From assembly GCA_943736015.1 (NCBI GenBank), contig OX031069.1:18357235-18421234 (forward strand): a stretch of DNA of 64,000 bases, read 5' to 3'. Within the stretch, counting starts at the first letter, position 1. Each line of letters begins with the position of its first letter. The notes under the pieces are model-generated. The model was not told the DNA's origin, ran no database searches, and saw nothing but the letters and a program-made list of their open reading frames with translations. The stretch comes from Tridacna crocea (taxonomy: Eukaryota > Mollusca > Bivalvia > Cardiida > Cardiidae). The translations under genes and the position numbers were made by a program. This document shows, piece after piece, positions 5,646 through 60,486 of the stretch.

Positions 5646-5814
5646 CATATTTTGAAGTTGTAATATGTGTGACAAGTGAAGTGTACAGTTTAGACATTGA
5701 AAGAGCTAGACCATATGTATCGAGCCTGGATATTGTGAAGAGGATACAGGATGCTCTGAAGAATGAACTGTGTCACATTCCTGAGGTGAAAAATGTGATT
5801 GTAAAAGACTTTAG
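5646..5814 (+). CDS. Exon a, N-terminal half of an SEA-like domain (copy A)
   Basis: Internal exon of a gene larger than the window. A pyrimidine-rich tract ends in TTTTGTAG before the exon and the donor is AG|GTAAAC. It is 169 nt: entry in phase 1 (two bases complete a codon), exit in phase 2. The 55 whole codons start YFEVVICVTSEV and end IPEVKNVIVKDF. The pattern of a short strand, an amphipathic helix (VSSLDIVKRIQDALKNEL) and a second strand leading to FR is that of the first half of SEA domains (extracellular, often self-cleaving domains of mucins, agrin, enterokinase and some adhesion receptors). It joins exon b to restore Arg (AG+G). It could instead be a diverged ferredoxin-like extracellular fold of another family. 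Confidence 0.75.
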
Positions 5815-6560
5815 GTAAACTTGTTATTATTAAGGTCATACGTAAAACGGAGAAAAAAGAGTGCAAAGAATAAAATCTGATCTTTGCTCTGTGTTGTTTG
5901 GTACATGGTGAGATACTGGCAGCAAAAGAGCCTTAAAATGGCAATGTCGTGGTGTTTATTTCTGTTTGAATATTAATATCAATGATTTTAGCCGTAGATC
6001 TAAAAGAATTATTTGATTTGACATGAGCAAAATTATTGTGACTATTACATTCTTGTCAAGATGGCAATTTGTCAAACACCCACCTTCACAACTAAGCTAC
6101 AGTGATATCCATATGCAAGCAATTGCTCCTTTTCCCATATGGTTTTTATAGCATTTATAACACGTTTCTCCAACGTATGTCTGAAAATAATGGCGTAGTA
6201 GAAAAAACAATGTAAACCCTGGCAAATGTACCAAAGATAGAATAACGTTTTCTGAGACCTTGGTTGCAGCAAAAGATATGACCTTGTAGGTATTGTTCAT
6301 TTTTATAATGGGTAAAATATGCAGATAAATTGGTGATTAACGCTTTTGACTTTTTCATGTTATTAACTCCCACCTGTAATCTGATCAGTTCACCATTCAC
6401 AGTATTTGCTTGTTTAATTTTTGTCTGGCGTATAAAAAATCTGAGATCAAAATATACTGTCAGTACTACCAATGAAATAAACTTATATAGTAAGCTAATT
6501 TCGAAGCCACTGTTAACTCCCATCCAACTAAATGATGAAGATTTAGTTTTCTCCATTTTT
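5815..6560. other. Intron a-b, first part, no gene seen
   Basis: AT-rich intronic sequence between exon a and the family I element. It holds a 143-codon frame on the minus strand (6155-6586) whose start lies in the repeat head and which has no recognisable domain or codon signal. From 6047 to about 6676 it is base-identical to copy B. Confidence 0.6.
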
Positions 6561-8279
6561 AGCTCACCTGAGCACAACGTGCTCAAGGGGAGCTTTTAGG
6601 ATCACCCGGTTCCGTCGTGCGTCGTGCGCCGTCCGTCGTGCGTCGTCAACAATTCTTTAAACATCAACTCCTCCTAAGCCGCTGGGCCAATTTGGACCAA
6701 ACTTGGCAGGAATGTTCCTTGGGAGGTCCTCTTTAAAAGCTGTTCACAGAATTTGATTCCATCAAAAACTCTGGTTGCCATGGCAACGAAATGGAATTTT
6801 TTAGCAAATTCTTTAAAAATTTTCTCCTCTGAAACCGCGGGTCGGATTTTGAAATTATTTCACAGAGATGTTCCATGGGTGATCCTCTTCAAAAACTGTT
6901 CGTGAAGTTTTGATCCGTCAAAAAATGTGGCTCTGGTGAATGGGGGCTACTTGCACTATACAGAAATGAAGGAATTCTTTAAAAATCTTCTCCTCTAAAA
7001 CCACTGGTCGGATTTTGAAATAATTTCACAGATATGTTCCTTGGGTGACCCTTTTCAAAAATTGTTCGTGAAATTTTGATCCGTCAAAAAATGTGGCTGT
7101 GGTGAATGGGGGCTACTTGCACTATACAGAAATGAAGGAATTCTTAAAAAATCTTCTTCTCTGAAACCGCTGGTCAGATTTTGAAATAATTTCACAGAGA
7201 TGTTCCTTGGATGACCCTTTTCAAAAACTGTTCGTGAAATTTTGATAGGTCAAAAAACATGGCTCTGGTCAATGGGGGCTACTTGCGCTATAGGGAAATG
7301 AAGAAATTCTTAAAAATTCTTCTTCCCTGAAACCGCTGGTCAGATTCTGAAATAATTTCACAGAGATGTTCCTTTGCTAACCCTTTTCAAAAATTGTTCG
7401 CGAAATTTTGATTGGTCAAGAAACATGGCTCTGGTGAATGGGGGCTACTTGCACTATAGGGAAATGAAGAAATTCTTAAAAATTCTTCTTCTCTGAAACC
7501 ACTGGTCAGATTTTGAAATAATTTCTCAGGGATGTTCCTTGGGTGACCCTTTTCAAAAATTGTTCGCGAAATTTTGATTGGTCAAGAAACATGGCTCTGG
7601 TGAATGGGGGCTACTTGCACTATAGGGAAATGAAGAAATTCTTGAAAATTCTTCTTCTCTGAAACGGCTGGACAGATTTTGAAATGATTTCACAGAGATG
7701 ATCCTTGGGTGACCCTTTTCAAAAATTGTTCACAAAGTTTTGATCCGTCAAGAAATATGGCTCTGGTGAATAGCGGCTACTTGCATTATATGGATATGAA
7801 GAAATTCTTGAAAATCCTTCTTCTCTGAAACCCCTAGTCAGATTTTAAAATAATTTGACAGAGATGTTCCTTGGGTGATCCTTGCTCTTGTGAATGGGGG
7901 CTACTTGCTCTGTATGGACATGATGAAATTCTTGGAAATTCTCTTTCTCTGAAACCCCTGGTCAGATTTTAAAAGAAATTTTCCGAAATGTTCCTTGGGT
8001 GACCCTTTTCAAAACTTGTTCGTAAATTTTGATCCATCAAGAAACATGGCTCTCGTGGATGGGGGATACTTGCTCTTATACAGAAATGAAGAATTCTTAA
8101 AAACTCTTCCTTTTGAAACTGATGGTCATATCTCGAAATGACTTTTACAGGTGACCTTTTGAAAATTGCTTAGCAAAATTATAAATTTGGTTCCAATGTT
8201 TCAATACCTCAAAAAAAATAGGCTATTGTCATCTCAAAAATTCAGGTGAGCGATCCAGGGCCATCTTGGCCCTCTTGTT
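6561..8279 (+). mobile_element. Family I element in intron a-b (copy A)
   Basis: Complete example. AGCTCACCTGAGC head hairpin; CGTCGTGCGTCGTGCG microsatellite; leader GGCCAATTTGGACCAAAC; about eight ~166-bp monomers (spacing of GGTGAATGGGGGCTACTTGC: 166, 166, 167 near 6931, 7097, 7263, 7430). The sub-terminal inverted repeat TCAGGTGAGC mirrors the head GCTCACCTGA; a 3' hairpin AGGGCCATCTTGGCCCT (8257-8273) precedes CTCTTGTT. Flanks are ...CCATTTTT and AAAGCAATG. No coding capacity. Confidence 0.9.
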
Positions 8280-8651
8280 AAAGCAATGTCAGACAACAAT
8301 ATACGACTCGTATGATAAGGTCGATTTTTGAAAGGATAAAATTTCTTTTCCTTCTTTTCACACAATAATTTCCAAGGCCTTTTTTGATAGAGTTGTTAAA
8401 ACTGGGAATTGTTTCGTAAAAGAAACTTTCTGTTGTCTGTAGGGAGCTTGTAAATATGGCAGCAGAAGTTGTCAGTTCTTCATAAAACTTTAAGACAAAT
8501 GCATCATTTGAGCCACTTGTAATATGTTGTTACTAAGTAAGAACTTGTCTAAGATTTTGTGGTTAAATATAGGTTGGTTTGCTGTCTCCAGGCGTTTTAA
8601 GTAATTTATCGGAATTTGTCATTATATGATGGAATATGTTGTTACTTGCAG

Positions 8652-8803
8652 GAGTGGATCCCTGATAGTTGTGTTGCGCATAGAAACAGACGGACTGGAC
8701 TCAACCGAACGGCTGGAACTTGCATTGTCGGAAATTCTGAAAAAAGGGAAATTTGGTGAATTTACTGTTGACCCAAGTCATTTTGAATTTTACAATTGTT
8801 CAG
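8652..8803 (+). CDS. Exon b, C-terminal half of an SEA-like domain with GS cleavage motif (copy A)
   Basis: It follows TTGCAG and ends before GTACATG. It is 152 nt, entered in phase 2 and left in phase 1. Joined to exon a it reads KDFRSGSLIVVLRIETD, the position and form of the SEA motif (FRPGSVVV in MUC1), where the chain is cut between Gly and Ser by folding strain. The rest (helix DSTERLELALSEILKKGK, strand FTVDPSHFEF) matches the usual second half of the domain. NCS at the end is an N-glycosylation sequon. The exon is identical at all 152 bases to its copy B counterpart. The intron from exon a is 2.8 kb and holds one family I element; the next intron is 22.6 kb. Confidence 0.8.
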
Positions 8804-8943
8804 GTACATGTAGTTTTATCATTGTGTTTGAGCTATGCTATGTGAAAAGGGGCTTTAATTTATTTGAAGATGTATCAACACAGGTCAGCATGTGTGGTCA
8901 ATTAAGGCGGAGTTATTTAATTTTCTGCTAATTCAATTACCAT

Positions 8944-9080
8944 TCTACCTCTGAATTCAGCTTGGTGTTAGACAATAGAATTTATGGATCCATAATTATG
9001 TAATGACTTGCTTGATATAATGCATCATGGATATGCATTAAACCACCTTTTCAGAACATGGCTTATAATTTTTTTCACCT
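8944..9080 (+). repeat. Segment homologous to 5285-5430
   Basis: Partner of 5285-5430, lying 140 bp after exon b. TGGATCCATAATTATGTAATG and TAATGCATCATGG are the clearest anchors. No exon a-like sequence was found at the distance (~300 bp further) that a simple module duplication would predict. Confidence 0.6.
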
Positions 9081-9762
9081 ATTTAAAGTTATACTGGCTG
9101 AAGGAAGTACTAGCAGAGCTTATGTCTTGACTTCAATGTGTTTGTCCATTTATCCTTTAAGTTTTTCTGTTCAATAGGAAAAAATCAACATCTATCCTCT
9201 ACATTGCTTTAAAATTACACATTTTCAGATTCAAAGGTAAGGTGAATATTTTCATGTTCAATTAGTGGTATCTCTGTAGTTTTTGCAAGCAGAAAACTGC
9301 GTAAATGACCAGTGTATCTTATATTGACACATATAGAAAACCTTGAAGAATTACCTTCTCTATAACCTGATCAGTATCAATAGCAAAAGTACTACAAATA
9401 TATTTAAATGATAATGTGTTGACCTGTTTTCGAATTGGTAAAATTTTGGCTGTTATATTCTTTTGTGTAGTATTGTTATGTGTGTCTTCAAGGTGGCAGC
9501 GAAAGTTTAAAATGAAAACTTCTAAGTTCCATCTTACAAATGGAGAGAAAGTTTTTGAATGATCTTACATGAATGTTCCACAGTTAATACTGTTATAAAT
9601 CTCTCACTGCTGAAAAAATAATTGACATAACTGAAAATCAATAAACTATTTCTTTAACATGAAATAACTTTTTTTGCAATGACTAAGAATACATTTCATA
9701 ATTAGTGTGATATTATAAGGTGAACTATAATGTCTATCAGTTTCTCTTGTTCATGTTCTTTT
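9081..9762. other. Intron b-c, unique AT-rich stretch, no gene seen
   Basis: Low-complexity AT-rich intron with no repeat phrase, no splice-bounded frame and no RNA motif recognised. Near-identical in copy B. Confidence 0.55.
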
Positions 9763-10906
9763 AGCTCACCGGAAGACAAAGTACTGAAGGCGAGCTTTTG
9801 TGATTGTGCTGTTTCAGTTGTATGTCATCCATTGTCCGGGGTTAAACAATTACCTTATGTGTACTTTTCATACCACATTTTCAATCCAATTCTCATGAAA
9901 CTTTAGAATGTATGTCATGATTAAATCTTACAAAACTTCGAAATTGAGTCGCATGGGTCAAAACGTAGGTCACTGGGCCAAATCTCACGAAAACCAAGTG
10001 TAGAAGCCACATTTTATGCCTGATACTCAAGAAACATGGTCAAAAGGTTTGGCTTGATAATAACGTAAACAATTGGGTCATGTCAGGTACAAAAAGTAGG
10101 GCACTTGGCCAAGTCTGAGAAAAATCTTGTGTGCACTCTGTAGGCCACATTTTCAGCTCAGTACTCGTGAAAGTGTGTCATAATGTTTGTTTCAATTAAA
10201 TTTTGGACAAGTTTAACGTTGGGTCACATCAGATAAAAAATTAGGTCAGTGGGCCAAATCTTTGAACAAAAAAGTGTGTGCACCTTAAAAGCCATTTTTG
10301 GGCCCAATTCTTGTGAAATATTGTTTGTCTTGATTATTCCTTGGACATGTTTAAAAATAAGGTCTCATCAAGTCAAGAACTAGGTCCCTGGCCAGATTTT
10401 AGCAAAGTCTTGTGTCCATTCCGGAGGCCATATTCCAGTCTTCTTAAAAAACTTGGTCAGAGTATTTGTCATGATGATATCTCTGACAAGTCTGAAGTTG
10501 AGTCATGTCCGGTCAAAAGTAGGTCACTTGGCCAAATCTTAGTAAAACCTTGCTTGTACCATTAGAGGTTACATTTTCATTCGGATAGACATGCGACTTG
10601 GTTGGAATGTTAGTCTTGATGATGTCTCTGACAAGCTTGAAATTTGGTAACGTTGAGTAACAGGTAGGCCAGTTGGCAAAATCTTAGTACAGCCTTGTTT
10701 CCATTCTAGAGGACATATTTTCAGCATGATTCACATGAAACTCAGTCAGAATGTTTGTTTTGATGATATCCCTGACAAGTTTAAAAATAAATAAAGTTCG
10801 TGTAAAAGTAAAACCAACATACATGACTGTGTTTTGAGATCATTACAGCCAGGATCTCTTCAGCTTTACTCAGGAGAACACTTGTGAGCCAATGGCCCTC
10901 TTGTTT
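9763..10906 (+). mobile_element. Family II variant element, head-to-tail with the next (copy A)
   Basis: Head AGCTCACCGGAAGACAAAG, then GCGAGCTTTTGTGATTGTGC, diverged ~145-bp monomers with GGTCACTTGGCCAAATCTTAG, and a worn tail (GAGCCAATGGCCCTCTTGTT). The next element head begins immediately: CTCTTGTTTAGCTCACTTG. Confidence 0.75.
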
Positions 10907-11704
10907 AGCTCACTTGAGCACAAAAGCTTCAGTATTTTTTGTGCTGTGTGCAATGTCAGTAACGTATTGCCCATTGTCAGTGCTGTCATCAACAGTTACT
11001 TTGTAAGCACTGTAGAGGCCACATTTTCAATAAGATACTATCAGAACTTGGTTCAATGTTTGTTTTGATAAAATCTCGTACAATTTCAAAATTGGGTTAC
11101 GCCGGGTCAGAAAGAGGTCACTAGGCCCAATCAGAGAAAAAAACGTCTGGTCAGAAAGAAGGTCAAAAGGCCAAATCAGAGAAAAAAACTTGAGTGCACT
11201 CTAGAGGCAACATCTTCATCCCATACTCATGAAACTCAACCATAAACTTTATGTTGATAGTATGGACAAGATTGATATTGGGTCACCTTTTTGGAAAAAA
11301 AAAAAGAATTACCTTGTGTGCAGTCTAGAGGCCAAATTTATTGTTCATTGATTTGAAAATTGATTAAAATATTTGCCTTGATGAACAGGATGAATTCAAA
11401 ATTGGGTCGTCTAGAGGCCATAAACTATGTCCCTAGGTTGAATTAAAGCAATACTCTTAGGGCATTATAGAGATAGCATTTCTTGCTCAATTGACTTGAA
11501 CTTTGGTCAGAATGTTTGGCTTGATGAAATGCTGGGTGATTTTGGGTTACGTTGGCTCAAAAAGGTCACTAGGCCAAATCGGAGAAAATCGTTGTGTGCA
11601 CTCTAGATGCAACATCTTTAGCCCATACTCATGAAACTCAATCAGAAAGTTTATCTTGATGATACTATGGAAAAGATTGAAGTTACATGTAGGTCACCTC
11701 TTTT
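10907..11704 (+). mobile_element. Family II variant, 5' part (interrupted) (copy A)
   Basis: Begins AGCTCACTTGAGCAC right after the preceding element. Its monomers (GGTCACTAGGCCAAATC, GTGCACTCTAGAGGC, CATACTCATGAAACTC) run to 11704, are split by a family VIII element, and continue at 13292-13766 and briefly at 14304-14330. Confidence 0.7.
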
Positions 11705-12686
11705 CATGCCCCCTTCAATGAAGTGGGGATATATTCCTTTGCTAATGTCGGTTGGTCGGTTGGTCCTTCGGTAGACCTTACCTTGTACAGATGATAACTA
11801 GACACAGAACTGACCTTGGTTCGGCAAATTTGGCACAGACATTTGTATCGCAGTGTGGATGATTCCTATTCATTTTGAGGTCAATCAGTCAAAAGTCAAG
11901 GTCACAGTGACATTCAACATATTGATATATAGTGGAAAAATTGTCCAGATGATAATTAGACACAGAATTGACCTAGGTACATGTACCTCATATTTGCCAC
12001 AGACATGCATCTTGGTAGATATTGATTTTGAGGGCAATCGGTTAATTGTCAAGGTCACAGTGACTGTCCATATGTTTATTTTTTGACCGAAACTTGTCTG
12101 GATTATAACTAAAGCAAAAATGACCTAGGTCTCCAAATTTGGCACAGACATGTTTCTCGGAGTGTAGATGATCCCTTTTAATTCTGAGATCAATCGGTCA
12201 AAGGTCAAGGGAACAGTGACATTCAACATCTTAATACACGTATATAGACCAAATCATGTCCATATGATAACTAGACACAGAAATGACCTAAGTTCCTCGA
12301 ATTTGGCACAGACATTTGTCTGGGAGTGTAGATGATCCCTATTGATTTTGAGGTCCATTGGCCAAAGTTCAAGGTCACAATAACCGTCAACATGTTGTGT
12401 TGAAGACCAATCCTTGTCTGGATGATACTTGACAGAGAAATGACCTAGGTTCCTGAAATTTGGCACATACATTTGTCTTAGAAAGTAGATGATTCTATTG
12501 GTTTATGAGGTCAATCGGTCAAATGTCAAGGTCACAGTGGCCTTCAACATCTATATATGTAGATCAGACCTTATCTAGATGATAACTAGACACAGGAACG
12601 GCAAAGTTCTTCAGACTTTGCATAGATATGTGTCTTGGAGTGTAGATGATCCCTAATGATTTTGAGATTAATCTGTCAAAGGTCAA

Positions 12687-12699
12687 GGTCACAGTGACC
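12687..12699. promoter_or_regulatory. Perfect oestrogen response element core (copy A)
   Basis: GGTCACAGTGACC, a full palindrome with the CAG spacer of the Xenopus vitellogenin A2 element, preceded by TCAA so that it also reads TCAAGGTCA (ERR/NR5A-type half-site). It lies in a repeat monomer inside an intron; function is not shown. Confidence 0.5.
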
Positions 12700-13003
12700 G
12701 TAAACATGTTGATAAATAGACCAAACCTTGTCCGCATGATAACTAGACACAGAATTGACCTAGGTTCGTCAAATTTGAACACAGATATTTGCCTCGGTGT
12801 GCAGATGATCCCTGTTGATTTTGAGGTCAGTTGGTCAAATGTCAAGGTCACAGTGACTGGTAGCATGTTGATAAATAGACCAAACCTTGTCCGGATGATA
12901 ACTAGACACATAATTGACTTAGCTTCCTCAAATTTGGCACAGATATTTTCCTTGAAGTGTAAATGATCCCTACCGATTTCAAGGTTAATCTTTGAAAGGT
13001 CAA

Positions 13004-13016
13004 GGTCACAGTGACC
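13004..13016. promoter_or_regulatory. Perfect oestrogen response element core (copy A, second)
   Basis: Second GGTCACAGTGACC in the same array, in its last monomer. Other monomers have one-base departures at the last positions (TGACA, TGACT, TGGCC). Confidence 0.5.
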
Positions 13017-13291
13017 ACCAGGTTTATCGGAGCCCACGCTGCTCTTCGCTACTTGAGCCATTTGCTAAAAAAAGAATTAAAGTGTCTCAAAAATCATCAT
13101 CATTATGTAGCCCAACTTGTGGCTCCAACATTTTACTCGTGTATTATCGGGGACGTAGTAAGCATCAAAGTCATTTTGGAAAAAGTAAAAGTCGACTGCG
13201 CGGTTTGATATCAGTTAATGAACTGTGCCACTTCCTGTATCAATGTGGCAGTAGGGGGGGGGGTTACTGTTTTTCAAACAGACATCTTGTT

Positions 13292-13766
13292 TATTTAAAA
13301 CAGAAAAGATCAATGGGCCAAAATTTGATAAGATCTTGTATTCACTCTAGAGGGCACGTGACGACTTCAACCCTTAACTCATGAAAATCGATATAAATGT
13401 TTCTTTGTAATGATATCCTGGTCAGGGTCCAAAATACGTCACTTTGGTTCAAAAGTGGGTCACTGGACTTAATCTTAGACAAACAGTGTGTGTACTCTAG
13501 AGGCCACATTTTAAACCAAATACTCATGAAACTTTGTCAAAATATTTGTTTCGTTCATATCTCACAAAAGTTCTAAAGCAGATCACGTGGGGTAAAATGG
13601 TAGGTCAGTTGAGCAAATCCTAGCAAAAACTTAAATCATGAAACTTGGTCAAAGGTGTCTTTATTATATAACAGGTAAGTTCCAAATAAGGAAATGTCCA
13701 GTCAAAAGGAGGTCATTCGGACAAGTCTTTGAAAAACATTGTTTGCCCTCCAGAGGCCACATTTTT
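13292..13766 (+). mobile_element. Family II variant, resumed monomers (copy A)
   Basis: Continuation after the family VIII insertion: GATCAATGGGCCAAAATTTG, ACTCTAGAGGCCACATTTTA and AAATACTCATGAAACTTTGTC. Stops at CCACATTTTT, where another element starts. Confidence 0.65.
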
Positions 13767-14303
13767 GCACACCTAAGCACAAAATACCCAATGTGAGCTA
13801 TTGTGATAAGGCTGTGTCCATCATGCTGTGTCCGTCTTGCGTTGTCCCCCATCAACTTGTACCTTGTGTGTGCTCTAGAGGCCACATTTTTAGTCAGATA
13901 CTCATGAAACTTGGTCAGGATATTTGTCTTCATGATATCTGGGACTATTTTGAAAGTGGTCAGCTGGAGGAAAAAAACTTAGTCACCTAGTTTAATCTCG
14001 GGAAAACCTTGTGTTCACTCTATAAACCATAATTTCTTTCAAATACGTGAAAAAGGTTGTCAAGATGTTGGTTAGGATAATTTCTACAAGTTTGAAAAAA
14101 GGTTATGTTGAGAGCTTAAAAGTAGGCCACATAGACAAATTCTAGAAAAAACGAGTGTACACTGTAGAGTCTATAATCCAAGTCCAATGCTAATGAAAGG
14201 TTTTCAGAATGTTTGTCATTATATCTCGGAAAAGATTAGGTATGAGTTTATGTTTGGTCAAAAGGCTCAAGTTAGCGACTTAAGGGCAATCGTGGCCCTA
14301 GTT
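13767..14303 (+). mobile_element. Short family II-type element nested in family II monomers (copy A)
   Basis: Worn head GCACACCTAAGCACAAAAT, then GAGCTATTGTGATAAGGCTG, about three monomers, tail GCGACTTAAGGGCAATCGTGG ending CCCTAGTT. Left flank CCACATTTTT and right flank AGCCTTATGCTCATGAAAC together rebuild a normal monomer (CCACATTTTCAGCCTGATAC...), so this is a clean insertion. Confidence 0.65.
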
Positions 14304-14647
14304 AGCCTTATGCTCATGAAACTTAGGCCCGTTCTTATAAAACATGTTTAGAATGATATCATACTCAAGACGAAATGTACTCCATGGCGTGAGTTTTACT
14401 CACGGTTGATTAGAATTTGAACCCAGACGTTGCTTATAATCGTCATCTGAGAGCGCTTTCAGCTGAGCATGGTACGCACTAAAATAACCGTAAAAGTAAG
14501 AGACCCAACATCTAAAAATAGCCTATATCAGGATAGTCTGCCCCAAGAGGATTTGTTCGAAGTTTCTGCCCAACAAATCAGAGAATTCGGTGACTTATTG
14601 AGAAAATTCAAGTCTTTATATTGAGAGGATTCAACTCTAATGTTTTT
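14304..14647. other. End of monomer then unique intron, no gene seen
   Basis: About 27 bp of family II monomer, then unique AT-rich sequence. A tract at 14510-14640 (GAGACCCAACATC to GAGAGGATTCAACTC) is not repetitive here but has no open splice-bounded frame. Confidence 0.5.
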
Positions 14648-15283
14648 AGCCCAGCTGAGCACCAAGTGGTAAGGTAAGGTATTGTGATTGGTCGTTGTCC
14701 GACGTCCATCTGGCTGTCTGTCTACAATTCCTTTAAATATCTTCTCCTAAACCGCTGGGCCAATCTTGATGAAACATGGCTGGGATGTTTCTTTGGTGAA
14801 GCTCTACTAAAGTTGTTCAAGAGATTAAGTTCCACCTAAAACACTTGTTGCCATGGAAACAGAAAGAAAAATAATAGCAAAATCTTTGAAAATCTTCTCT
14901 GAAACTAGAAAGCGTAGGGCTTTGATATTTAGTATGTAGCATCTCCCGATTGAGCTCTACCAAGTTTCTTCATACGATGCACCTGGAGTCAAAACAGGCC
15001 CCGCCCCAGGAGTCACAAATCCTAACATAGGAACAAAGAAGGAAAACTTTAAAATGCTTCTTCTTTAAAACTGGAAGTTGAAGAGCTTTGATATTTGGAA
15101 TATAGCATCTCCTACTCGATCTCTACGAAGTTTGTTCAAATGATGCTGCTAGGGTCAAAACGGGCCCCATCCCGGAGGTCACAAGTTCGAACAAAGAAGG
15201 AAAACTGTAGAATTCTTCTTTTCTAAAACTGGAAGGCATACAGCTTTGTTGTTTGGTATGTAGTGAACCTGTTCTAAGTTTTT
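14648..15283 (+). mobile_element. Degenerate family V-type element, 5' part (copy A)
   Basis: Head AGCCCAGCTGAGCACCAAG, GTCCGACGTCCATCTGGCTG microsatellite-like part, leader CTAAACCGCTGGGCCAATC, then monomers with GGTCAAAACGGGCCCC and AAACTGGAAG. No proper 3' end; family III starts at 15284. Confidence 0.65.
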
Positions 15284-17974
15284 AAGATCACCTGAGCACA
15301 ACGTGTTCAGTAAGTTCGAAATTGGGTCACCTTGGGTCATATACTAGGTCAATAGGTCAAATTAAAGAAATACCTTGTGGACACTCTAAGGGCCACATTT
15401 AATGCTCAAAGTGCCTGATGTTTTTTTCAGAATGTTTGTCTTGATAAAATATGGTATGGGTGTAGATTTGGGTCACCTAGGATCATAAACTGGGTCAGTA
15501 GGTCAGATTAAAGAAACACCTTAGAGGCCACAAATATTTGGCACAATTGACTTAAGATTTGGTCAGAATGTTTGTCTTGATAAAATCTCACCGAATTTGG
15601 GTCAACTTGGACCATACACTAGGTCACTAGGTAAAATCAAAGAAATACCTTATGGACAGTCTCGACGCCACTTTTTTTGCTGGTTTGACTTGAAAATTGG
15701 TCAGAATACTTGATTCATCAAATAACGAATGAATCTGAATCATGTGGGGCCCACCCGGGTGGGTCAGTGATGAGGGTGTCGGAGTTCGATACCCGGTTCA
15801 GGCAAACTTTCTTTCCGGTATATTTTCGCCTCTCACCTCTGCTGAAGCATGTGAGAAAAGTAGTCGGTGGCTTTAAAGATAATTGTGTTAGTACTGGTGT
15901 GAGAAGCCAGGAAACGCATGTGCGTCACCGACCGCCATGGTATGACCTTTGCTCATAAAGTGGCGTTCATTCCCAATACAACCAACCAACTGAATGATGT
16001 GGGGGTCTTAAATTAGGTTGAAGTTCAAATTAAATACCCTATGGACACTCTTGAGACCACTTTTATTGTTCAATTGATTTGAAAATAAGTAAAAATAATT
16101 GTCAAAATAAAATTTAGGATGATCTAAAATTGAGTCATCTATATAATCTAGGTCACTAGTTTAAATGAAAGCAATACCGAAAGAAGCTAAATATCCTGCT
16201 CAATTGACTTAAAAAATAGTCGGAATGTTTTTCTTGATGAAATATGGGATGAGTTTGAAATTAGGTCACCTAGGATCATAAACTAGGTCACTAGGTCAAA
16301 TTAAAGAAACACCTTGTGGGCATTCCAGAGGCCACATTTATGGCTCAGTTTACTTTGAAGTAAATCGATCAGAATGTTTGTGTTGGTAAAATCTCACATG
16401 AATCTCACATGAATCGGAATTTGGTTCATGTGGGTCTTAAATCATGTCACTAGGTTAAATTAAAGAAATACCGTGTAGGCACTTTAGAGGCCAAATTTTT
16501 TTCAAATTGATTAAGAAATTAATTAAGATGTTTGTCTTGATAAAACCTAGGATTGGTTCAAAATTTGGGCACCTGGGGTCATAAATTAGGTCACTTCATC
16601 AAATTAACGAAGAACCTTGTGGGCACTCTAGAGGCTACATTTATTGCTCAACTGACTTGAAAATTGGTCAGAATGTTTGTGTTGATGAAATCTCACATGA
16701 ATATGGATTTGTTTCATGTTTAGGTCACTAGGTTAAATTAAAGCAGTTCCTTGAGGGCACTCTAGAGGCCACATTTATTGTTCAATTGATTTGAAAATTG
16801 CTTAAGATGTTTATCTTGATAAAATTTAGAATTGGTTCGAAGTTGGGTCACCTGGGGTCACTAGTTCGAATTTAAGGAATACCTTAAGGGCATTCTAGAA
16901 GACACATTTCTTGTTCAATTGACTTTAAAATTTTTCTCAGAATGTTTGCCGTGATCACATTTCAGATAATTCTGAAGTTGGGACACCTGGAGTCATAAAC
17001 CAGGTCACTTGATCAAATTAAAGAAATACCTTATGGGCACTCTAGTAGCCATATTTAATCCACAATTACCTGATATTTGGTCAGAATGTTTGTCTAGATA
17101 AGTTTTAAATTGGATTATGTGGGTTCATAAACTAGCTCACTAGGTTAAATTAAAGAAGTACACCTAGGGCAATCTAGAGGTCACATTTTTTGCTCAAATG
17201 ACTTTAAGACTGGTCAGAATGTTTTTCACGATGAAGCCTCACATGACTGAATTCTGGTCAACGGCGATGATTAACTGGGTCACTAGTTCAAATTAAAGAA
17301 ATACCATATTTATTGCTCAAATCACTCCAAAACTGATCAGAAAGTTTATTTTGATGAATTTTTGACAAGTTCAAAATTAGGTCATGTGGACTCATAAACT
17401 AGGTCTCAAGGTCAAATGAAAGAAATACCTTTTGGGGACTCTAGAGGCCAAATTTATTGTTCATTGATTTTAAAATTGATTAAAATGTGTGTCATGATGA
17501 AATCTAATGATGAGTTCAAAATTGGGTCATCTGGGAGTGAAAATCGAGGTCACCAGGTCAAATTAAAGAAATACCCTTAAGGAACTATAGAGGTAATATT
17601 TCTTGCTCAATTGACTTGAACATTGGTCAGAATGTGTCTTGGTAAAATACTAGGTGAGAATGAAATTGGGATACATGGGGTCATAAACAAGGTCACTTAG
17701 TCAAAAAGAAATAATTTGTGGACACTCTAGAGGCCAAATTTATTGCTCAATTAACGTGAAAATTGTTCATAACTTTGGTCTTGATCAATTTTCTGATGAG
17801 TTATAAATTTGCTCACGTGGGATGATAAATTACGTCACCAGGTCAACTTACAGAAATTCCTTGTAGATGCTCAATATTGACATGACAAGTGGTTAGAAAT
17901 TTAATTATGCACGTGGAGTGAATTTCGTCTATTGACTCAGGTGAGCGATCTAGGGCCATTATGGTCCTTTTGCT
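15284..17974 (+). mobile_element. Family III element, long array of ~130-150-bp monomers (copy A)
   Basis: Begins AAGATCACCTGAGCACAACG and ends with the mirrored TCAGGTGAGCGATC, hairpin AGGGCCATTATGGTCCT and TTTTG. Between lie roughly 17-19 diverged monomers of the form AAATTAAAGAAATACCTTG, GGCACTCTAGAGGCCACATT, TCAATTGACTTGAAAATTGG and GGTCACCTGGGGTCATAAAC. A SINE sits inside the third or fourth monomer. Confidence 0.82.
15750..15990 (+). mobile_element. tRNA-derived SINE with (AACC)-type tail and target-site duplication (copy A)
   Basis: 241 bp bounded by TGAATCATGTGGGG (15736-15749) and TGAATGATGTGGGG (15991-16004), a 14-bp duplication with one change, as left by LINE-type retroposition. 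It has an A-box-like TGGGTCAGTGA (15760-15770), B box AGTTCGATACC (15783-15793), a body and an ACAACCAACCAAC end. The anticodon arm region is shortened. The 82-codon frame across it (15710-15958) is not a gene. Confidence 0.82.
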
Positions 17975-21481: not shown

Positions 21482-21572
21482 TGCAAATTCTTCTTTTCCT
21501 CTCACTTCTTATTCCTATTGACTAGATAATCGTAACCAAATGACGCCCCTCCTCCCAATTTGGTATGCTTTT

Positions 21573-42007: not shown

Positions 42008-42020
42008 GGTCACAGTGACC
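42008..42020. promoter_or_regulatory. Perfect oestrogen response element core (copy B)
   Basis: GGTCACAGTGACC, unchanged from 12687-12699. Confidence 0.5.
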
Positions 42021-42324: not shown

Positions 42325-42337
42325 GGTCACAGTGACC
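42325..42337. promoter_or_regulatory. Perfect oestrogen response element core (copy B, second)
   Basis: GGTCACAGTGACC, unchanged from 13004-13016. Confidence 0.5.
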
Positions 42338-49873: not shown

Positions 49874-50341
49874 GTCTTTTATAACAAAGTTCTATCTAAT
49901 AGTACGAGGTGTACAAATACATGTATACAATTGTTGTATTGCAAATTCTTATTGAAAATATTATCAAACTTCCTAAAACGTTTGGCGAATCTTAAACTCA
50001 AACCAATATACCACTCTTTGCCCTTTCCAGTCTTTTCCGACACATTTCTAAAGTATTTTTCGGCAGTTCAGTGTTACAAGTTTAGGTAACATTTATAATC
50101 ATCAGTACTTTATCCCAACCTAGAATTTTCGCTGTTTGCAGCCGACAATCCTGCGTTTAGGTGTTTTTCGGAGATATAATCACTAGAACTAGAAGTATCG
50201 TCATTGCCTGGTGTGTTATGGCATATAAAAGGTGTTTTCTGCAAAACGATTACCAGTGCAGATGAGGTATCATCGGCGGTGTTTTCCGGCCTACTTAGGT
50301 TTTGTAAGGCTAGGGAATGTTATCCTCCTACCGCTAGACCA
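49874..50341. other. Unique intron, no gene seen (copy B)
   Basis: Counterpart of 20735-21202. Confidence 0.45.
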
Positions 50342-50620
50342 GTCCCCATTTAGCTCATTTGACAGAGCGTAGGACTCTTGAACGTGATGTTGCGGGTCAC
50401 TTGAGGCTATGGGTTCGATTCCCATGCCTGGCCATTTAAACTTACCAATAGTATGTCGGATGAGACGTTAAAGTGAGTTGCCTTGCGACGGTGCTATACA
50501 ATAAGCACATTAAAGAACCAGGCATAACTTCAGATGGATTTCGTCCTGTATCCTACACTATTCCCCCCGTAACAACACTAGCAGCCCTCAGGGAGGCAAC
50601 AGACAGCAACGATAAATAAA
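50342..50620 (+). mobile_element. tRNA-derived SINE, Lys-like head (copy B)
   Basis: Counterpart of 21203-21481; boxes A and B unchanged. Confidence 0.75.
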
Positions 50621-50711
50621 TGCAAATTCTTCTTTTCCTCTCACTTCTTATTCCTATTGACTAGATAATCGTAACCAAACGACGCCCCTCCTCCCAATTT
50701 GGTATGCTTTT

Positions 50712-51038
50712 AGTCCCCTACTGGTAAAACCGGAGGGGACTTTAGATTTACCCTGTCTGTCTGACCATTCGTCTGTCCGTCAATCCGTTTCGTCCTTTTT
50801 TTTTCAAACGCTGGCAGATATTGAGCTGATTTTTGTTTTGTAAGTCAACCACCATGACTTACAGATCAAGCTAAAGTTACATTCCGGTCCACTGATTGTT
50901 GACGAAAGTACAGGCCCTTGGAAAGTTTCACGTAAAAATTGTTTTCCGGACTTTTTACCTCGCCTGATTTTTGTAGTGCAAGTCTGCCACTTTGAGTTAC
51001 ATATCAAGTTTGAGTTTTGTTCTGGTCCACTGATTTTT
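50712..51038 (+). mobile_element. Family VI element, 5' part (copy B)
   Basis: Counterpart of 21573-21899. Confidence 0.65.
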
Positions 51039-51612
51039 AGCTCGACTGGCCGAAGGCCAGCGGGCTTATGTCATGGCCTGTTGTCCCGCCGTGCGTCCGT
51101 CCGTACGTTCGTGAACTTTTATTTCAAACATCATGTTCTCTGAAACTACCCATCCAATTTTAATGAAACTTCACAGAAATGGTTCTGCCATGATCCTCTT
51201 CAGAATGTTTCGAAAGAATTTGATTCCTTTAAAAACTCTGGTTGCCATGGCATCAAAACTGAAAAATATCTTTGAAAATCTTCTTGTCTGAAACTATAAG
51301 GCCTACGGCTACCAATTTCAGCATGAAGCTTTATCTAGTGGACCTCTACCAAGTTCCTTCAAAAAATAGCCTTGGGGTCAAAATTGGCCCTACCCCTGGG
51401 GTCACGTTTATATGGGCTTATATAGGGAAGATTTAAAATCCTTTTTGTACCTAACCATAGGGCCTTGTGCAACCAAGCATTGCATATATCTTTATCAAGT
51501 GGGCGTCTACCAAGAGTGCCCAAACTATAGTCTTTGGATCAAATTTGGCCCGGCCCTGGAGGTCAAAATTTTTTATATGTGCTTATATACGGAAAAATCT
51601 AAAATCCTTTTT
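51039..51612 (+). mobile_element. Family V element, 5' part (copy B)
   Basis: Counterpart of 21900-22473; the head hairpin loop is GAA instead of AAA, leaving the stem intact. Resumes at 57391 to about 57703. Confidence 0.75.
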
Positions 51613-51969
51613 ATACGCCCGAAGGGTCGTATTATGTTATACCCTCGGTCGTCCGTCCGTCCGTTAGCAATTTCTTGTGTGCGCAACTCCTCCTACAGTT
51701 TCCATCCGAATTATTTGAAACTTGCCACAATGAATCTCCATCTCCATGATGTCTAGTTGTGCACCTGAGTCTTAGAATTTGGATCGCTGTTTGCGTTCTA
51801 AAATTATCTGCCCCTGATTTCTGAAATAACCAACTTTTCACTTGGAATTTTTGTTTAGGCTATAACTTCCATACTATGAAAGGTATCAACTTGAAACTAC
51901 ATAAACTGATAGAACACATTATTGAGAAGTGCAGTGCACATGAACAATAACTCTGCCGCCGTTATTTTT

Positions 51970-53239
51970 AGCTCACCTGAGCACAACGTGCTCAAGGGGA
52001 GCTTTTAGGGTTACTGGGTGTCCGTCGTGCGTCGTCCGTCGTGCGTCGTGCGTCGTCAACAATTCTTTAAACATCGACTCCTCCTAAACCGCTGGGCTAA
52101 TTTGGACCAAACTTGGCAGGAATGTTCCTTGGGAGGTCCTCTTTAAAAAGCGTTCACAGAATTTGATTCCGTCAAAAAGTCTGGTTGCCATGGCAACGAA
52201 ATGGAATTTTTAAGGAAATTCTTTAAAAATCTTCTCCTCTGAAATCGCTGGTCGGATTTTGAAATTATTTCACAGATATGTTCCTTGGGTGACCCTTTTC
52301 AAAAATTGTTCGTGAAATTTTGATCCGTCAAAAATTGTGGCTCTGGTGAATGGGGGCTATTTGCACTATACAGAAATGAAGGAATTCTTTAAATATCTTC
52401 TCCTCTGAAACCGTTGGTCGGATTTTGAAATAATTTCACAGATATGTTCCTTGGGTGACCCTTTTCAAAAATTGTTCGTGAAATTTTGATCCGTCAAAAA
52501 ATGTGGCTCTGGTGAATGGGGGCTTCTCGCACTATACAGAAATGAAGGAATTCTTAAAAAATCTTCTTCTCTGAAACCGCTTGTCAGATTTTGAAATAAT
52601 TTCACAGAGTTGTTCCTTGGGTGACCCTTTTCAGAAATTGTTCGCGAAATTTTGATTGGTCAAGAAACATGGCTCTGGTGAATGGGGCTACTTGCACTAT
52701 AGGGAAATGAGGAAATTCTTAAAAATTCTTCTTCTCTGAAACGGCTGGACAGATTTTGCAATGATTTCACAGACTTGTTCCTTGGGAGACCCTTTTTGAA
52801 AAATTGTTTAAATAATTTGACAGAGATGTTCCTTGGGTGATCCTTGCTCTTGTGAATGGGAGCTACTTGCACTATATGGACATGATGAAATTCTTGAAAA
52901 TTCTCTTTCTCTGAAACCCCTGGTCAGATTAAAAAAAAAAAAAAATCCGAAATGTTCCTTGGGTGACCCTTTTCAAAACTTCGTAAATTTTGATCCATCA
53001 AGAAACATGGCTCTCGTGGATGAGAGATACTTGCTCTTATATAGAAATGAAGAATTCTTAAAAATTCTTCTTTTTGAAACTGATGGTCAGATTTCGAAAT
53101 GACTTTTACAGGTGACGTTTTGAAAATTGCTTGGCAAAATTATAAATTTGGTTCCAATGTTTCAATACCTTAAAAAAATAGGCTATGGTCATCTAAAAAA
53201 TTCAGGTGAGCGATCCAGGGCCATCTTGGCCCTCTTGTT
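51970..53239 (+). mobile_element. Family I nested in family IV, first (copy B), recombined
   Basis: About 114 bp shorter than its partner at 22831-24214. Around 52766-52810 it carries ACAGACTTGTTCCTTGGGAG and CCCTTTTTGAAAAATTGTT, a tract belonging to the second nested element (about 54517-54555), then rejoins its own sequence. Confidence 0.85.
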
Positions 53240-53547
53240 TGGGTAACTGCCCTTTGTTAATCTTCAGTTTGAATTTTTGTCCAGGCCATAACTTCTAAAC
53301 TATAAAAGCTATTAAGTTGGAACTTCATACACTGATAGAACCCATTATGGAGAAGCATTGTACATGAACTATAACTCTGCCACTTTTATTTTTTGAGTTA
53401 TTGCCCTTTGTTAATTTTCACTTTGAATTTTTGTCCAGGCCATAACTTCCGAATTATAAAAGGTATCAACTTGAAACTACATACACTGATGGAAAACATT
53501 AGGGAGAAGTGCAGTGCACATGCACCATAACTCTGCCACCATTTTTT

Positions 53548-55159
53548 AGCTCACCTGAGCACAACGTGCTCAAGGGGAGCTTTTAGGATCACCCGGTGTC
53601 CGTCGTGCGTCGTGCGTCGTCCGTCGTGCGTCGTCAACAATTCTTTAAACATCAACTCCTCCTAAACCGCTGGGCCAATTTGGACCAAACTTGGCAGGAA
53701 CGTTCCTTGGGAGGTCCTATTCAAAAATTGTTCACAGAATTCGATTCAATCAAAAACTCTGGTTGCCATGGCAACCAAATGAAATTTTTTAGCAAATTCT
53801 TTAAAAATCTTCTCCTCTGAAACCCCTGGTCAGATTTTGAAATAATTTCACAGATATGTTCTTTGGGTGACCCTTTTCAAAAATTGTTCGTGAAATTTTG
53901 ATTTGTCAAAAAATGTGGCTCTGGTGAATGGGGACTACTTGCATTATACAGAAATGAAGGAATTCTTTAAAAATCTTCTCCTCTGAAACCGTTGGTCGGA
54001 TTTTGAAATAATTTCACAGATATGTTCCTTAGGTGATCCTTTTCAAAAATTGTTCGTGAAATTTTGATTCGTCAAAAAATGTGGCTCTGGTGAATGGGGG
54101 GCTACTTGCACTATACAGAAATGAAGGAATTCTTAAAAAATCTTCTTCTCTGACACCGCTGGTCAGATTTTGAAATAATTTCACAGAGTTGCTCCTTGGG
54201 TGACCCTTTTAGTAAACTGTTCGCGAAATTTTGATTGGTCAAGAAACATGGCTCTGGTGAATCGGGGCTTCTTGCACTATACAGAAATGAAGAAATTCTT
54301 AAAAATTCTTCTTCTCTGAAACAGCTGGTTAGATTTTGAAATAATTTCACAGAGATGTTCGTTGGGTTACCCTTTTCAAAAGTTGTTCGCGAAATTTTGA
54401 TTGGTCAAGAAACATGGCTCTGGTGAATGGGGGCTAATTGCACTATACAGAAATGAAGGAATTCTTAAAAATTCTTCTTGTCTGAAACGGCTGGTTAGAT
54501 TTTGAAATAATTTCACAGACTTGTTCCTTGGGAGACCCTTTTTGAAAAATTGTTCGCGAAATTTTGATTGGTCAAGAAAAATGGCTCTGGTGAATGGGGG
54601 CTATTTGCACTATACAGAAATGAAGAAATTCTGGAAAATTCTTTTTCTCTGAAATGGCTGGACAGATTTTGAAATAATTTCACAGAGATGTTGCTAGGGT
54701 GATCCTTTTCTAAAATTGTTCGCGAAATTTTCATTGGCCAAGAAACATGGCTCTGGTGAATGAGGGCTACTTGCACTATATGGAAATGAAGAAATTATTG
54801 AAAATTCTTCTTCTCTGAAACCCGTTGTCAGATTTTAAAATAATCTGACAGAGATGTTCCTTGGGTGACCCTTTTCAAAAGCTGTACATATAATTTTGAT
54901 CCATCAAGAAACATGGCTCTTATGAATGGGGGATACTTGCTCTTATACAGAAATGAAGAATTCTTAAAAATTCTTCTTTTTGAAACTGATAGTTATATTT
55001 CGAAATGACTTTTACAGGTGACGTTTTGAAAATTGCTTGGCAAAATTATGAATTTGGTTCCAATGTTTCAATACCTCAAAAGAAAAAAAAAAGAAAATAG
55101 ACTATGGTCATCTCAAAAATTCAGGTGAGCGATCCAGGGCCATTTTGGCCCTCTTGTTT
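53548..55159 (+). mobile_element. Family I nested in family IV, second (copy B)
   Basis: Counterpart of 24523-26113; longer GTCGTGCGTCGTCCG microsatellite in the head. Confidence 0.88.
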
Positions 55160-56639
55160 AGCTCACCTGAGCACAACGTGCTCAAGGGGAGCTTTTAGGA
55201 TCACCCGGTGTCCGTCGTCAACAATTCTTTAAACATCAACTCCTCCTAAACCGCTGGGAGGATTTGGACTAAACTTGGTTGGAATGTTCCTTGGGAGGTC
55301 CTCTTTCAAAAGTGTTCACAGAATTTGATTCAATCAAAAATTCTGGTTGCCATGGCAACCAAATGAAATTTTTTAGCAAATTCTTTAAAAATCTTCTCCT
55401 CTGAAACCGATGGTCAGATTTTGAAATAGTTTCACAGATATGTTCCTTGGGTGACCCTTTAGAAAAACTTCGTAAAATTTTAATCTGTCAAAAAATATGG
55501 CCCTGGTGAATGGGGACTTCTTGCATCATATAGAAATGAAGGAATTCTTAAAAATTCCTCTTCTCTGAAACCGCTGGTCAGATTTTGAAAAAATTTTACA
55601 GGATTGTTCCTGGGGTGACCCTTTTCAAAATTTATTCGTAAGATTTTGAACTGTCAAGAAACATGGCTCTGGTGAATGGGGGCTACTTGCATTATAGGGA
55701 AATAAAGGAATTCTTAAGAATTCTTCTTCTCTGAAACCGCTTGTCAAATTTTGAAATAATTCCACAGGACTGTTCCTTGGGTGACCCTTTTCAAAACTTG
55801 TTCGTAAAATTTTGATCCGTCAAAAAATGTGGCTCTAGTGAATGGGGGCTACTTGCACTATACGGAAATTAATAATTTCTTTAAAATTCTTCTTCTCTGA
55901 AACGGCTGGTCAGAATTTGAAATGATGTCACAGGATTGTTCCTTGGGTGACCCTTTCCAAAAAGTGTTCGCGAAATTTTGATCCGTGAAGAAACACAGCT
56001 CTGGTGAATGGGGGCTACTTGCATTATAGGGAAATGAAGAAATTCTTAAAATTCTTCCTCTCTGAAACCGCTGGTCGGATTTTGAAATAATTTCACAGAA
56101 ATGTTCCTTGGATGACCCTTTTTAAAATTTGTTTGTGAAATTTTGATCCATCTAGAAACATGGCTCTGGTAAATGGGGGCTTCTTGCACTATATGGCCAT
56201 GAAGAAATTCTTTAAAATTCTTCTTCTCTGAAACGGCTGATCAGATTTTGAAATAATCTTACAGAAATGTTCCTTTGGTAACCCTTTTCAAAAACTGTTC
56301 GCAAAATGCTGATTTGTCTAGAAACATGGCTCTGGTGAATGGGGGCTACTTGCACTATTTGGCCATGAAAAAATTCTTTTTCTCTGAAACAGCTGATCAG
56401 ATTTTGAAATAATTTCTCAGAAATTTTTCTTAGCTAACCCTTTTCGAAAATTGCTCTAGAAATTTTGATCCATCAAGAAACATGGCTCTGATGACTGTGG
56501 GCTATTTACACTATACAGACATGAAGAAATTCTTAAAAATTATTCTTCTCTGAAAGGGCTGATTAAATTTTGAAAGAAATGGCTATTGTTCTCTCGCAAA
56601 TTCAGGTAAGCGATCCAGGGCCATCTTGGCCCTCTTGTT
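55160..56639 (+). mobile_element. Family I nested in family IV, third (copy B)
   Basis: Counterpart of 26114-27766, lacking one 166-bp monomer (joined at about 55690) and with a shorter head microsatellite. Confidence 0.88.
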
Positions 56640-57390
56640 TGAGTTACTGCCCTGTGTTAATTTTCACTTTCAATTTTTGTCCAGGCCATAACTTCTAAAC
56701 CATAAAAGCTGTTAACTTGGAACTTCATACACTGATAGAACCCATCATGGAGAAGTGCATTGCACATGAACCATAACTCTGCCACTTTTATTTTATGAGT
56801 TATTGCCCTTATTTAATTTTCACTTTGAATTTTTATCCAGGCCTTAACTTCCAAACTGTAAAAGCTATTAACTTGGTACTTCATACACTGATAGAACCCA
56901 TTATGGAGAAGTGCATTGCACTTGCACCATAACTCTGCCACCTTTATTATTTGAGTTTTTGCCATTTGTTAATTTTCAGTTTGAATTTTTGTGAAGACCA
57001 TAACTTCCAAACTTCAAAATCCATCATCTTGAAACTTCAAAGACTAATAGAACACATTATGAACAAGTGCATTGCGCAAGAACCGTAACTCTGCCATCCT
57101 TCCTTCTCTGTCATTGCCCTTTTCAATTTGAATTTTCGTCTGGGCCATAATTTCTAAAATATAAAAGATTTGATCTGGGACCTTCAAAGACTGATAGAAC
57201 ACCTTATGGATAAGAGCAACTCACAAAATTTGTAACTTTGCCACTCTTATGTTTTTAGTTATTGCCCTTTAATATTTTTTACATATCATGGAGAATAACT
57301 ATTCTTCATTCATGGCCCATCGATCAATGCAACTCATTTCACTGACAAGCCCCTTCGGGCGTATATGCGCCGCTCTGCGAAGCTCTTGTT

Positions 57391-57888
57391 GTACCTAGCC
57401 ATAGGGCTTTGCGCTACCAAATATTGCATACATCTTTATCAAGTGGGCATCTACTAAAAGTGCCCAAATTATAGCCCTTAGATCAAATTTTGTCCGGCCC
57501 CGGGGTCAACAGTTTTTATCGGCTTATATAGGGAAAAAAACTTTAAAAATTTTCTCTTACCTAGCCATAAGGCTTAGGGCTACCTTATTTGGCATCTAAC
57601 ATTATCAAGTGTTTGTCTACCATGGGTGCCCTAATCATAGCCTTGGGTTGAATTTGGGGGTCACAAGCTTTACATGGGCTTATATTGGGAAAAAAGGAGT
57701 AATACCGTCTCTTTGATTGCAAACAAACATTCCAGGTTGTTACAGAAACATGCATGTTAAAACTTGTTTTACCGTGAGGACTAACCTCCTGTAATGTAAG
57801 GGTTACTTTGGCGCCACGTACCTTCAAGTGTTTTTCGATAGCACCACTCATCTTTAAGAGCTTTTCAAATATTGGTGATTGGTAATAA
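57391..57888 (+). mobile_element. Family V resumed monomers and following unique stretch (copy B)
   Basis: Counterpart of 28518-29016; the monomer part ends near 57703. Confidence 0.6.
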
Positions 57889-58829
57889 ATTATCCCCAGC
57901 CGAAGGCGAAGGATTATAGTTTTAGTGTTGTCCGTCCGTACGTCCGTCTGTCTGTCTGTCTGTTCGTCCGTCCGCCCGTTAGCAGTTTCTTGTGTGCGCA
58001 ACTCCTCCTACAGTTTCTATCGGAATTATTTGAAACTTGCCACAATGAATCTCCATGATGTCTAGTTGTGCACCTGGGTCTTAGAATTTGGATCGCTGTT
58101 TACGTTCTAAGATTATCTGCCCCTGATTTCTGAAATAACCAACTTTTCACTTCGAATTTTTGTTCAGAATATAACTTCCATACTATGAAAGGTATCTACT
58201 TGAAACTACATACACTGATAGAATCCATCATGGAAAAGTGCAGTGCACTTGTACCATAACTCTGCCACCGTTATTTTTTGAGTTACTGCCCTTTGTTAAT
58301 TTTCAGTTTGAATTTTTTTCCAGGCCATGACTTCCAAACTATAAAAGCTATTAACTTGGAACTTCATACACTGATAGAACCCATTATAGAGAAGTGCAGT
58401 GCACATGAACCATAACTCTGCCCCCTTTTTTTTGAGTTATTGCCCTTTGTTAATTTTTCAATTTGAATTTTTGTCCAGATCATAACTTAGAACCCATTAT
58501 GGAGAAGTGCATTGCACATGAATCATAACTCTGCTATCCTTCTTTATAAGTTATTGCCCTTTTCACTTTGAATTTTTGTCTGGGCCATAGATTTTAAATA
58601 TAAAAAAATATGATCTTGAACCTTCAAAGACTGATAGAACACCTTGTGGATAAGAGCAATTCACAAAATTTCTAACTTTGCCACCCTTATTTTTTTACTT
58701 ATTGCCCTTGATATTTTTCACATATGATGGAGAATAACTACTCTTTATTCATGGCCCATCCGTCAATGCAACTCATTTCATTGACAAGCCCCTTCGGGCG
58801 TATATGCGCGGCTCTACGAAGCTCTTGTT
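57889..58829 (+). mobile_element. Second family IV-type element (copy B)
   Basis: Counterpart of 29017-29957. Confidence 0.8.
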
Positions 58830-59182
58830 TTATATTATCTTGGATGGGTATGAAAATGGGTCATTGTGGGGTCTAAAACAAGGGCACTAGATCAAAGTTT
58901 AGGAAAAGTTCATGTTCACTCAAGACGCCTCATTTTGAGTCCAGTACTTACGAAAATTGGTCAGAATGTTTGTGTCATTGACATCTTTGAAGAGTTAGAA
59001 GTTGGGTCATGTCTGGTCACTACATCGGATCTTTGAAAAACCATTTGTACCTCTTAAAGTGGTTGGAATCTCTGTATTGATGATATCTTTGAAGAGTTTG
59101 AAAATTGGTCATGTTGGGTCATAAACTAGGCCATTATGTCAAATCTTAGAAAAAAACCTTGTGTACAAGAAAAGGCCAACCC
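58830..59182 (+). repeat. Family II monomers, remnant (copy B)
   Basis: Counterpart of 29958-30310; followed to 59441 by unique intron with the TGACGTCA palindrome at 59196-59203. Confidence 0.7.
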
Positions 59183-59441
59183 TTTTCCACAGCCCTGACG
59201 TCATCTGAATACATTGTATGTTTTAATACTTATAATGGGGTAACATCATGCAAATTATTTACTTATAAACTGTCAAAGACAGCTCATGACAAGGGCCAAA
59301 AGTGCATGTAATCCTTAAAATGTTTTTAAAACAGTTATACCCCTTTATTAGTTTAAGTATTACTCTTGCCTGGAATCATACTAGCAGTATATAGTTTAAA
59401 AAAACTGCTTCAAGGACTGGCACACTCACATAGTGACCTTG

Positions 59442-60119
59442 AAGCTCAACTGGGCGCAAAGTGCTCAAGGTTAGCCTTAAAATGTTTTATCTTGTAATTA
59501 TCTCTCAAGAGTTTTACAAGTGGACCTCCTCTCCTCAAACATGGGAAAAAAGACTTTCTTTTGTAGTCTGTAAGCCTTGTTTGTAGACCTTTCTCAAGAA
59601 ACTTTGGACAGGATTCTTTGTTTTGATAGTATATTTGACACAAGTGTAAACTAGTTTCTAGTGGTGAACATTTAGATCACTAATTAAAATCTTATAAAGA
59701 TTATATGTGCTCTCTAAGGCCATATTTTCAGCCCAGAAGTTATTCAGCAGTGTGGAATTTCAGAAAACCTGTAAGTTTTTGTAGAGTCAAGTAATTATGC
59801 AACTAGGGGAAATGCTTGTCTTGACAGTATCTTGAAAAAGATTGTAAATGGGTTACTTGTATCAAAAGTAGTTACTTGGTAAGATCTTAATAAAGATGGT
59901 CTGTGCAATGCATCAATCACATTTTGAGTACAATGATCTTGAAACTTGGTCAGAATGTTGGTTTTTATATTCCAGCCAGTTTTCAAATGGGTCACCTGGA
60001 ATAAAAGGGTAGGTCACATTGTTGAAGATTGGATTTTGTACGCAAATGGACTAATTTTTTATTCTTCAAATGTGTAATGACTTAGATGAGTCATCCTGGG
60101 CCATCTTGACCCTCTTGCT
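59442..60119 (+). mobile_element. Degenerate family II element before exon c (copy B)
   Basis: Counterpart of 30570-31247. Confidence 0.65.
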
Positions 60120-60273
60120 TTTTATTCAAACTACATGTATGTGAAATATTCAATAATGTGGTTTATTGCTACAGGCTTAAAATGTCCATTTGAATAAAGA
60201 GCCATATAAGGTAAAGCAGATGCCATATTGATATTATATTCCTTAGATTTTTTGTTTTTTCAATCTGCAATAG

Positions 60274-60486
60274 AGGGACAACAGCAAAGAGGTGAGACTG
60301 ATCCCCCTGACATTGAAGAGAATACCAATAGGAATATAGGGCCTCCAAGTGTTGCCTGGAATGAAACTACAGAGAAAGTACAAGATGTTGATGATGGCAG
60401 AGTGATAGATGTGTCATTGGAGTGGCTAAAGTCTAAACTGGAGAAGAAACCTCTCTCTAGTGGAAAGTCGGGGGAAGTCTTCAAAT
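60274..60486 (+). CDS. Exon c, acidic linker after the SEA-like domain (copy B)
   Basis: Same acceptor, donor, length and phase as 31402-31614. Three bases differ and all change the protein: Asp to Gly (module residue 114), Glu to Lys (166) and Phe to Leu (168). The NET sequon is kept. No further exon of the gene was recognised between this exon and the right end of the window, so the transcript must continue beyond 64000 or use an exon too short or diverged to see. Confidence 0.62.

Follow-up and report, generated by a model that had tools for sequence, protein, structure and literature searches.

A recent head-to-tail duplication of about 29 kb carrying a putative SEA-like class 1-1 cassette in Tridacna crocea

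Tandem gain of domains that are bounded by phase 1 introns on both sides (class 1-1) is a textbook event. SEA domains are described, in the passages of PMC3927616 that treat them, as class 1-1 modules, symmetric and mobile, and agrin is presented there as having gained its SEA domain as such a cassette. According to the part of PMC6954182 that deals with their cleavage, the cut is made at a GSVVV or GSIVA motif, which stands in the loop from strand 2 to strand 3. Here, we analyse a stretch of 64,000 bases with 0 N from the bivalve Tridacna crocea (contig OX031069.1, C14:18357235-18421234; genome of 1.05 Gb in 31 contigs). This whole stretch is called the window, and it holds two copies, A and B, of a block of about 29 kb in which two exons, a and b, and a proposed third exon, c, can be recognised. 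The best explanation, to which we give a probability of about one half, is a head-to-tail duplication of a SEA-like 1-1 cassette, made up of a and b, whose copies can splice to each other in frame.

The a+b unit resembles the SEA domains of MUC1, MUC16 and GPR126 (ADGRG6) in its size of 107 residues, in its predicted order of strands and helices, which was read by eye, and in its class 1-1 phases, as far as these are treated in PMC3927616. Where MUC1 has FRPG/SVVV, the window has a G-S-hydrophobic stretch, and a relative on contig C17 has PGSVMV against PGSVVV in MUC1. It differs from MUC1 in that the window motif is SGSLIVV instead of GSVVV and that the window protein has no significant match to Pfam SEA or to MUC1 itself. 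The cassette character is shared with agrin, but the unit in the window was duplicated in place, next to the original, whereas that of agrin was inserted into another gene, and the window showed no partner domain, of laminin type or otherwise. The C17 gene (C17:25374550-25384100) offers a comparison within the same genome: its spliced pair is identical to the window at 34 of 101 residues (34%) with 0 gaps (E 4e-18), and its internal intron and phases are the same. It differs in being single-copy in the searches made (four matches, two of them C17 itself and two window exon b), in having kept PGSVMV, and in having a recognisable LDL-receptor class A exon nearby; no such exon was seen near the window copies.

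The duplicated block and the frames of its exons

Self-BLAST confirmed the 29-kb duplication that an earlier note on this DNA had proposed. The two copies are collinear and lie head to tail, with an offset of 29,317 to 28,875 nt, and they differ at 87 of 16,875 aligned positions (0.52%), tandem arrays excluded. The exon coordinates and splice sites given in that note were also right, with AG before and GT after in all six exons, as were the phases, which are the same in both copies (Table 1). When a, b and c are joined, 178 codons without a stop are obtained in either copy, and the predicted frame-neutral join of c to the exon a of copy B (a') holds, T+CA giving Ser. By the same reading of the splice sites, a+b alone is symmetric 1-1 and so is c alone, and therefore b can be joined to a' in frame as well as c. 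We thus reinterpret a+b (107 residues) and c as two separate symmetric 1-1 units instead of one module.

To judge from sequence comparison, a and b are a real coding pair. A search of the whole genome with the joined protein gave 15 matches. These comprise both window copies, two minus-strand a/b pairs (17.95 and 18.29 Mb), two plus-strand copies of c (17.62 and 17.996 Mb), a distant a/b pair on contig C3, and a single exon on C17. Per exon, the C3 pair shares 50-59% identity with the window, and it has kept both exons, their splice sites and their phases. The ratio of non-synonymous to synonymous divergence (dN/dS) between a+b and the C3 pair was 0.43-0.47 in all four comparisons (59/245 non-synonymous against 30/70 synonymous sites; Fisher p 0.004). 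The C17 match was weak at first (E 0.69), and the missing exon a was then found 9 kb upstream; in a search of 23 kb, E values of 2.8e-5 for exon a and 9.5e-7 for exon b were obtained. The internal intron of the C17 pair stands at the same position and in the same phase as the intron between a and b in the window, and this, together with the upstream exon a and the gapless spliced alignment, shows that the C17 relative is real. Phase 1 was read from the splice sites at both ends of a+b in copies A and B as well as in the C3 and C17 relatives.

What may have followed from the duplication can be outlined on this basis. The cassette, copied locally with its introns, would code for a SEA-like extracellular domain of the beta-alpha-beta/beta-alpha-beta type, and, with phase 1 at both of its ends, the exons of copy A could be joined in frame to exon a of copy B by splicing. 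If the block lies within one transcribed gene, the protein would gain 107 residues (b to a'), or 178 by way of the doubtful c (c to a'). Neither a signal peptide nor a membrane span was identified.

Alternatively, A and B may each be a gene of its own, or a partly dead gene fragment, within a duplicate cluster, and may never be part of one transcript; we consider this possible though on the unlikely side. The a/b pairs at 17.95 and 18.29 Mb do stand alone on the other strand, 3/494 nt apart, and neither the first nor the last exon of a host gene, nor any further domain, was recognised in the frames scanned in the window or just upstream. None of 86 window frames (at least 45 aa, read from the + strand over 1-33300 and 61700-64000 after exclusion of those lying mostly within arrays) matched Pfam at 0.01, and neither did any of 91 of the 94 frames of at least 50 aa in the 30 kb upstream. 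Nor is there any sign of constraint between A and B. The exons differ at 6/534 positions and 5/178 residues (V31A, N50D, D114G, E166K, F168L), with five non-synonymous changes and one synonymous change over a, b and c (NG86). They are slightly more diverged than the rest of the block (6/534 vs 81/16,341, p 0.058) and hence give no sign of constraint since the duplication, the changes being too few for a conclusion; between recent copies, a+b likewise was without significant constraint (13/315 vs 30/488 intron positions, p 0.26). These scans and counts speak against the explanation preferred here, and so do the profile and alignment results on the identity of the domain reported below. On the other side, neither copy has lost a splice site or an open frame, and the 1-1 phases make in-frame joining the default if both copies are inside one transcribed unit.

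Table 1. Features of the window (positions counted from its first base)
Feature	Position	Strand	Length	Remarks
Duplication unit, copy A	3938..32974	+	29,037 nt	self-BLAST and alignment
Exon a, copy A	5646..5814	+	169 nt	putative SEA-like domain, first half; entered in phase 1, left in phase 2; related exons on C3 and C17
Exon b, copy A	8652..8803	+	152 nt	putative SEA-like domain, second half, starts R/SGSLIVV; entered in phase 2, left in phase 1; related exons on C3 and C17
Proposed exon c, copy A	31402..31614	+	213 nt	frame of 71 residues, acidic and linker-like; entered and left in phase 1; weakly supported
Interspersed repeat at the A/B joint	32973..33255	.	283 nt	overlaps the copy edges by 1-2 nt
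Duplication unit, copy B	33255..61847	+	28,593 nt	self-BLAST and alignment
Exon a, copy B	34966..35134	+	169 nt	3 nt different from copy A
Exon b, copy B	37973..38124	+	152 nt	identical to copy A
Proposed exon c, copy B	60274..60486	+	213 nt	3 nt different from copy A

The status of proposed exon c

In the earlier note, a, b and c were taken as a three-exon SEA module by which the protein had been lengthened by 178 residues per copy. This account is unlikely: the domain ends with exon b, c would be a separate symmetric exon under little constraint, and from its sequence it is doubtful that c is an exon at all. In the window, c does lie on the same strand as the other exons, between b and a', and it has matching 1-1 phases. 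Its open frame and its AG/GT sites are kept in four of four copies, the lengths of which (201, 210, 210 and 219 nt) are all multiples of three. However, the dN/dS values of c were 0.65-1.07 in five comparisons, and c diverges as fast as or faster than the flanking intron. Against the 17.99-Mb copy, 21/201 positions of c differ compared with 38/675 in flanking intron (p 0.024, c being the faster), and against the 17.62-Mb copy 25/210 compared with 67/584 (p 0.90). In simulations, chance alone would also keep the frame of c open in about 17% of cases, in-frame length changes not being counted.

The genomic arrangement points in the same direction. No a/b pair on the same strand was found near the c copies at 17.62 and 17.996 Mb, which are on the plus strand; the nearest pairs, at 17.95 and 18.29 Mb, are on the minus strand. 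The homology of the a/b paralogs with the window breaks off at 9752, short of c, and the c side has a paralog of its own at 17.992-17.997 Mb, with 95% identity over 27700-32321. It follows that c and a/b travel separately. In the 10 kb below the C3 pair, no match to exon c was found below E 9.

The domain encoded by exons a and b

The a+b unit is probably a SEA domain or a close SEA-like domain. Support comes from the C17 relative, which matches positions 3-94 of the 106 in Pfam SEA (PF01390) with 19.9 bits (E 8e-4). In the shuffle tests against MUC1, p was 0.002 for C17 exon b aligned with the C-terminal half. At the aligned place of the cleavage loop, SGSLIVV is found in the window, KGSLIVV in C3 and PGSVMV in C17, which are similar, but not identical, to GSVVV and GSIVA; a cleavage-loop motif is absent from some SEA domains. 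The intron between a and b lies two residues before the GS-L-I-V stretch that resembles the SEA self-cleavage site.

The contrary results mentioned above concern the direct searches. The Pfam SEA profile has a cut-off of 26.4 bits and scored MUC1, the positive control, at 52.7 bits, and by this measure the C17 match is below the cut-off; it also stands just behind TRADD-like_N (E 7.8e-4). Pfam SEA had no match to the 178-residue or the 107-residue window protein, to the protein p18.28 or to the C3 proteins; the best Pfam match of the joined 178-residue module was HMA_2 (E 0.19), and that of the 107-residue part was again HMA_2 (E 0.061). The alignments of the window, p18.28 and C3 proteins with the SEA domain of MUC1 were not significant (shuffle p 0.09 for the window; 0.066, 0.068 (C3)), and no SEA chain of the PDB appeared in the PDB sequence searches, in one of which the best 60 of 91 matches were considered. 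A genome-wide search with Pfam SEA gave no match, and it was uninformative because none was obtained in any control genome either. Of the SEA assignment made in the earlier note, the likeness of a+b to SEA stands, with reservation, by virtue of the gapless C17 relative with its shared intron and phases, while a profile match of the joined module itself, the check that the note had proposed, was not obtained.

We also considered that a+b is another domain with a ferredoxin-like (beta-alpha-beta-beta-alpha-beta) arrangement, not SEA, to which we give a small probability. That HMA_2 and not SEA was the best Pfam match in the window, and that TRADD-like_N is level with SEA in the C17 relative, would fit such a domain. 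On the other hand, HMA_2 is far below its own cut-off, and the SEA match in C17 spans 92 of 106 profile positions, compared with only 37 of 69 for TRADD-like_N. In addition, the C17 exon starts with PGSVMV after the intron, like FRPGSVVV in MUC1, and is followed by the LDL-receptor class A exon.

The C17 gene (C17:25374550-25386390) as a whole is composed of a diverged two-exon SEA-like domain, an unrecognised long exon and the LDL-receptor class A exon (E 3.4e-13), which lies 2 kb beyond the SEA-like exons.

The joint of the two copies and the surrounding region

That the assembler falsely placed two haplotypes in series is quite improbable, and less likely than separate genes or fragments: a divergence of 0.52% would be within the allelic range and the differences are unevenly spread (0 to 10 per 500-nt bin, 27 bins, variance/mean 2.5), but the window contains no N, the joint is a hard sequence join that has its left side inside a 166-bp array and carries the 283-nt repeat, and independent older duplicates of the same pieces are present nearby.

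The left edge of copy A (3938) falls within a 166-bp tandem array, and the right edge (32974 / 61847) is in non-array sequence. Unequal crossing-over with a 166-bp array at each end was considered and rejected as a full account, since only the left edge is in an array. The 166-bp repeat forms separate arrays at 3283-4197, 6806-7883, 23073-23821, 24749-25939 and 26340-27702, together with their copies in B, and the difference in length between A and B comes mostly from the copy number in these arrays, e.g., around 23.5-27 kb. The repeat at the joint was found in 39 other places with 92-98% identity (40 places scored of 397 first-look candidates). In the 39 places listed besides the joint it usually spans query 33-315, six of them reaching further right, and its last eight letters occur again where copy B ends on the right (61848-61855). 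It may have been inserted later, or it may have had a role in the formation of the joint.

Other recent duplicates are present in the neighbourhood. The a/b pairs at C14:17950356-17951735 and C14:18286999-18288378 share one orientation, are separated by 336,643 nt and differ at 3 of 494 flanking nt, which marks them as a further very recent duplication. Because the surroundings hold such duplications, the event in the window is typical of its region, and we regard it as an ordinary, recent class 1-1 domain duplication among further recent ones. Within 0.8 Mb there are at least four a/b pairs and four copies of c, each with its frame open and its splice sites preserved. A more far-reaching idea is that a SEA-like family is expanding at present on one chromosome, with the window protein gaining a second unit and the fast-changing linker c perhaps under diversifying selection; we consider this rather improbable.

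If the two copies are spliced together, the window would show at a very early stage (about 0.5% divergence) how phase 1-1 domains multiply in extracellular proteins, while the joint, the flanking arrays and the single-copy C17 relative can still be read. One could then follow the fate of a newly gained second domain, which may be used, skipped or lost. The general picture would be unchanged, as this would be a young example of an already known kind of event.

Two further observations concern the flanks. The remaining three long upstream frames, scanned apart, match reverse transcriptase and RNase H; at C14:18351929-18354208, some 3 kb ahead of the first base of the window, such frames are split by stops, as in a broken retroelement. 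Conserved upstream stretches at 273-500 and 726-815 look non-coding.

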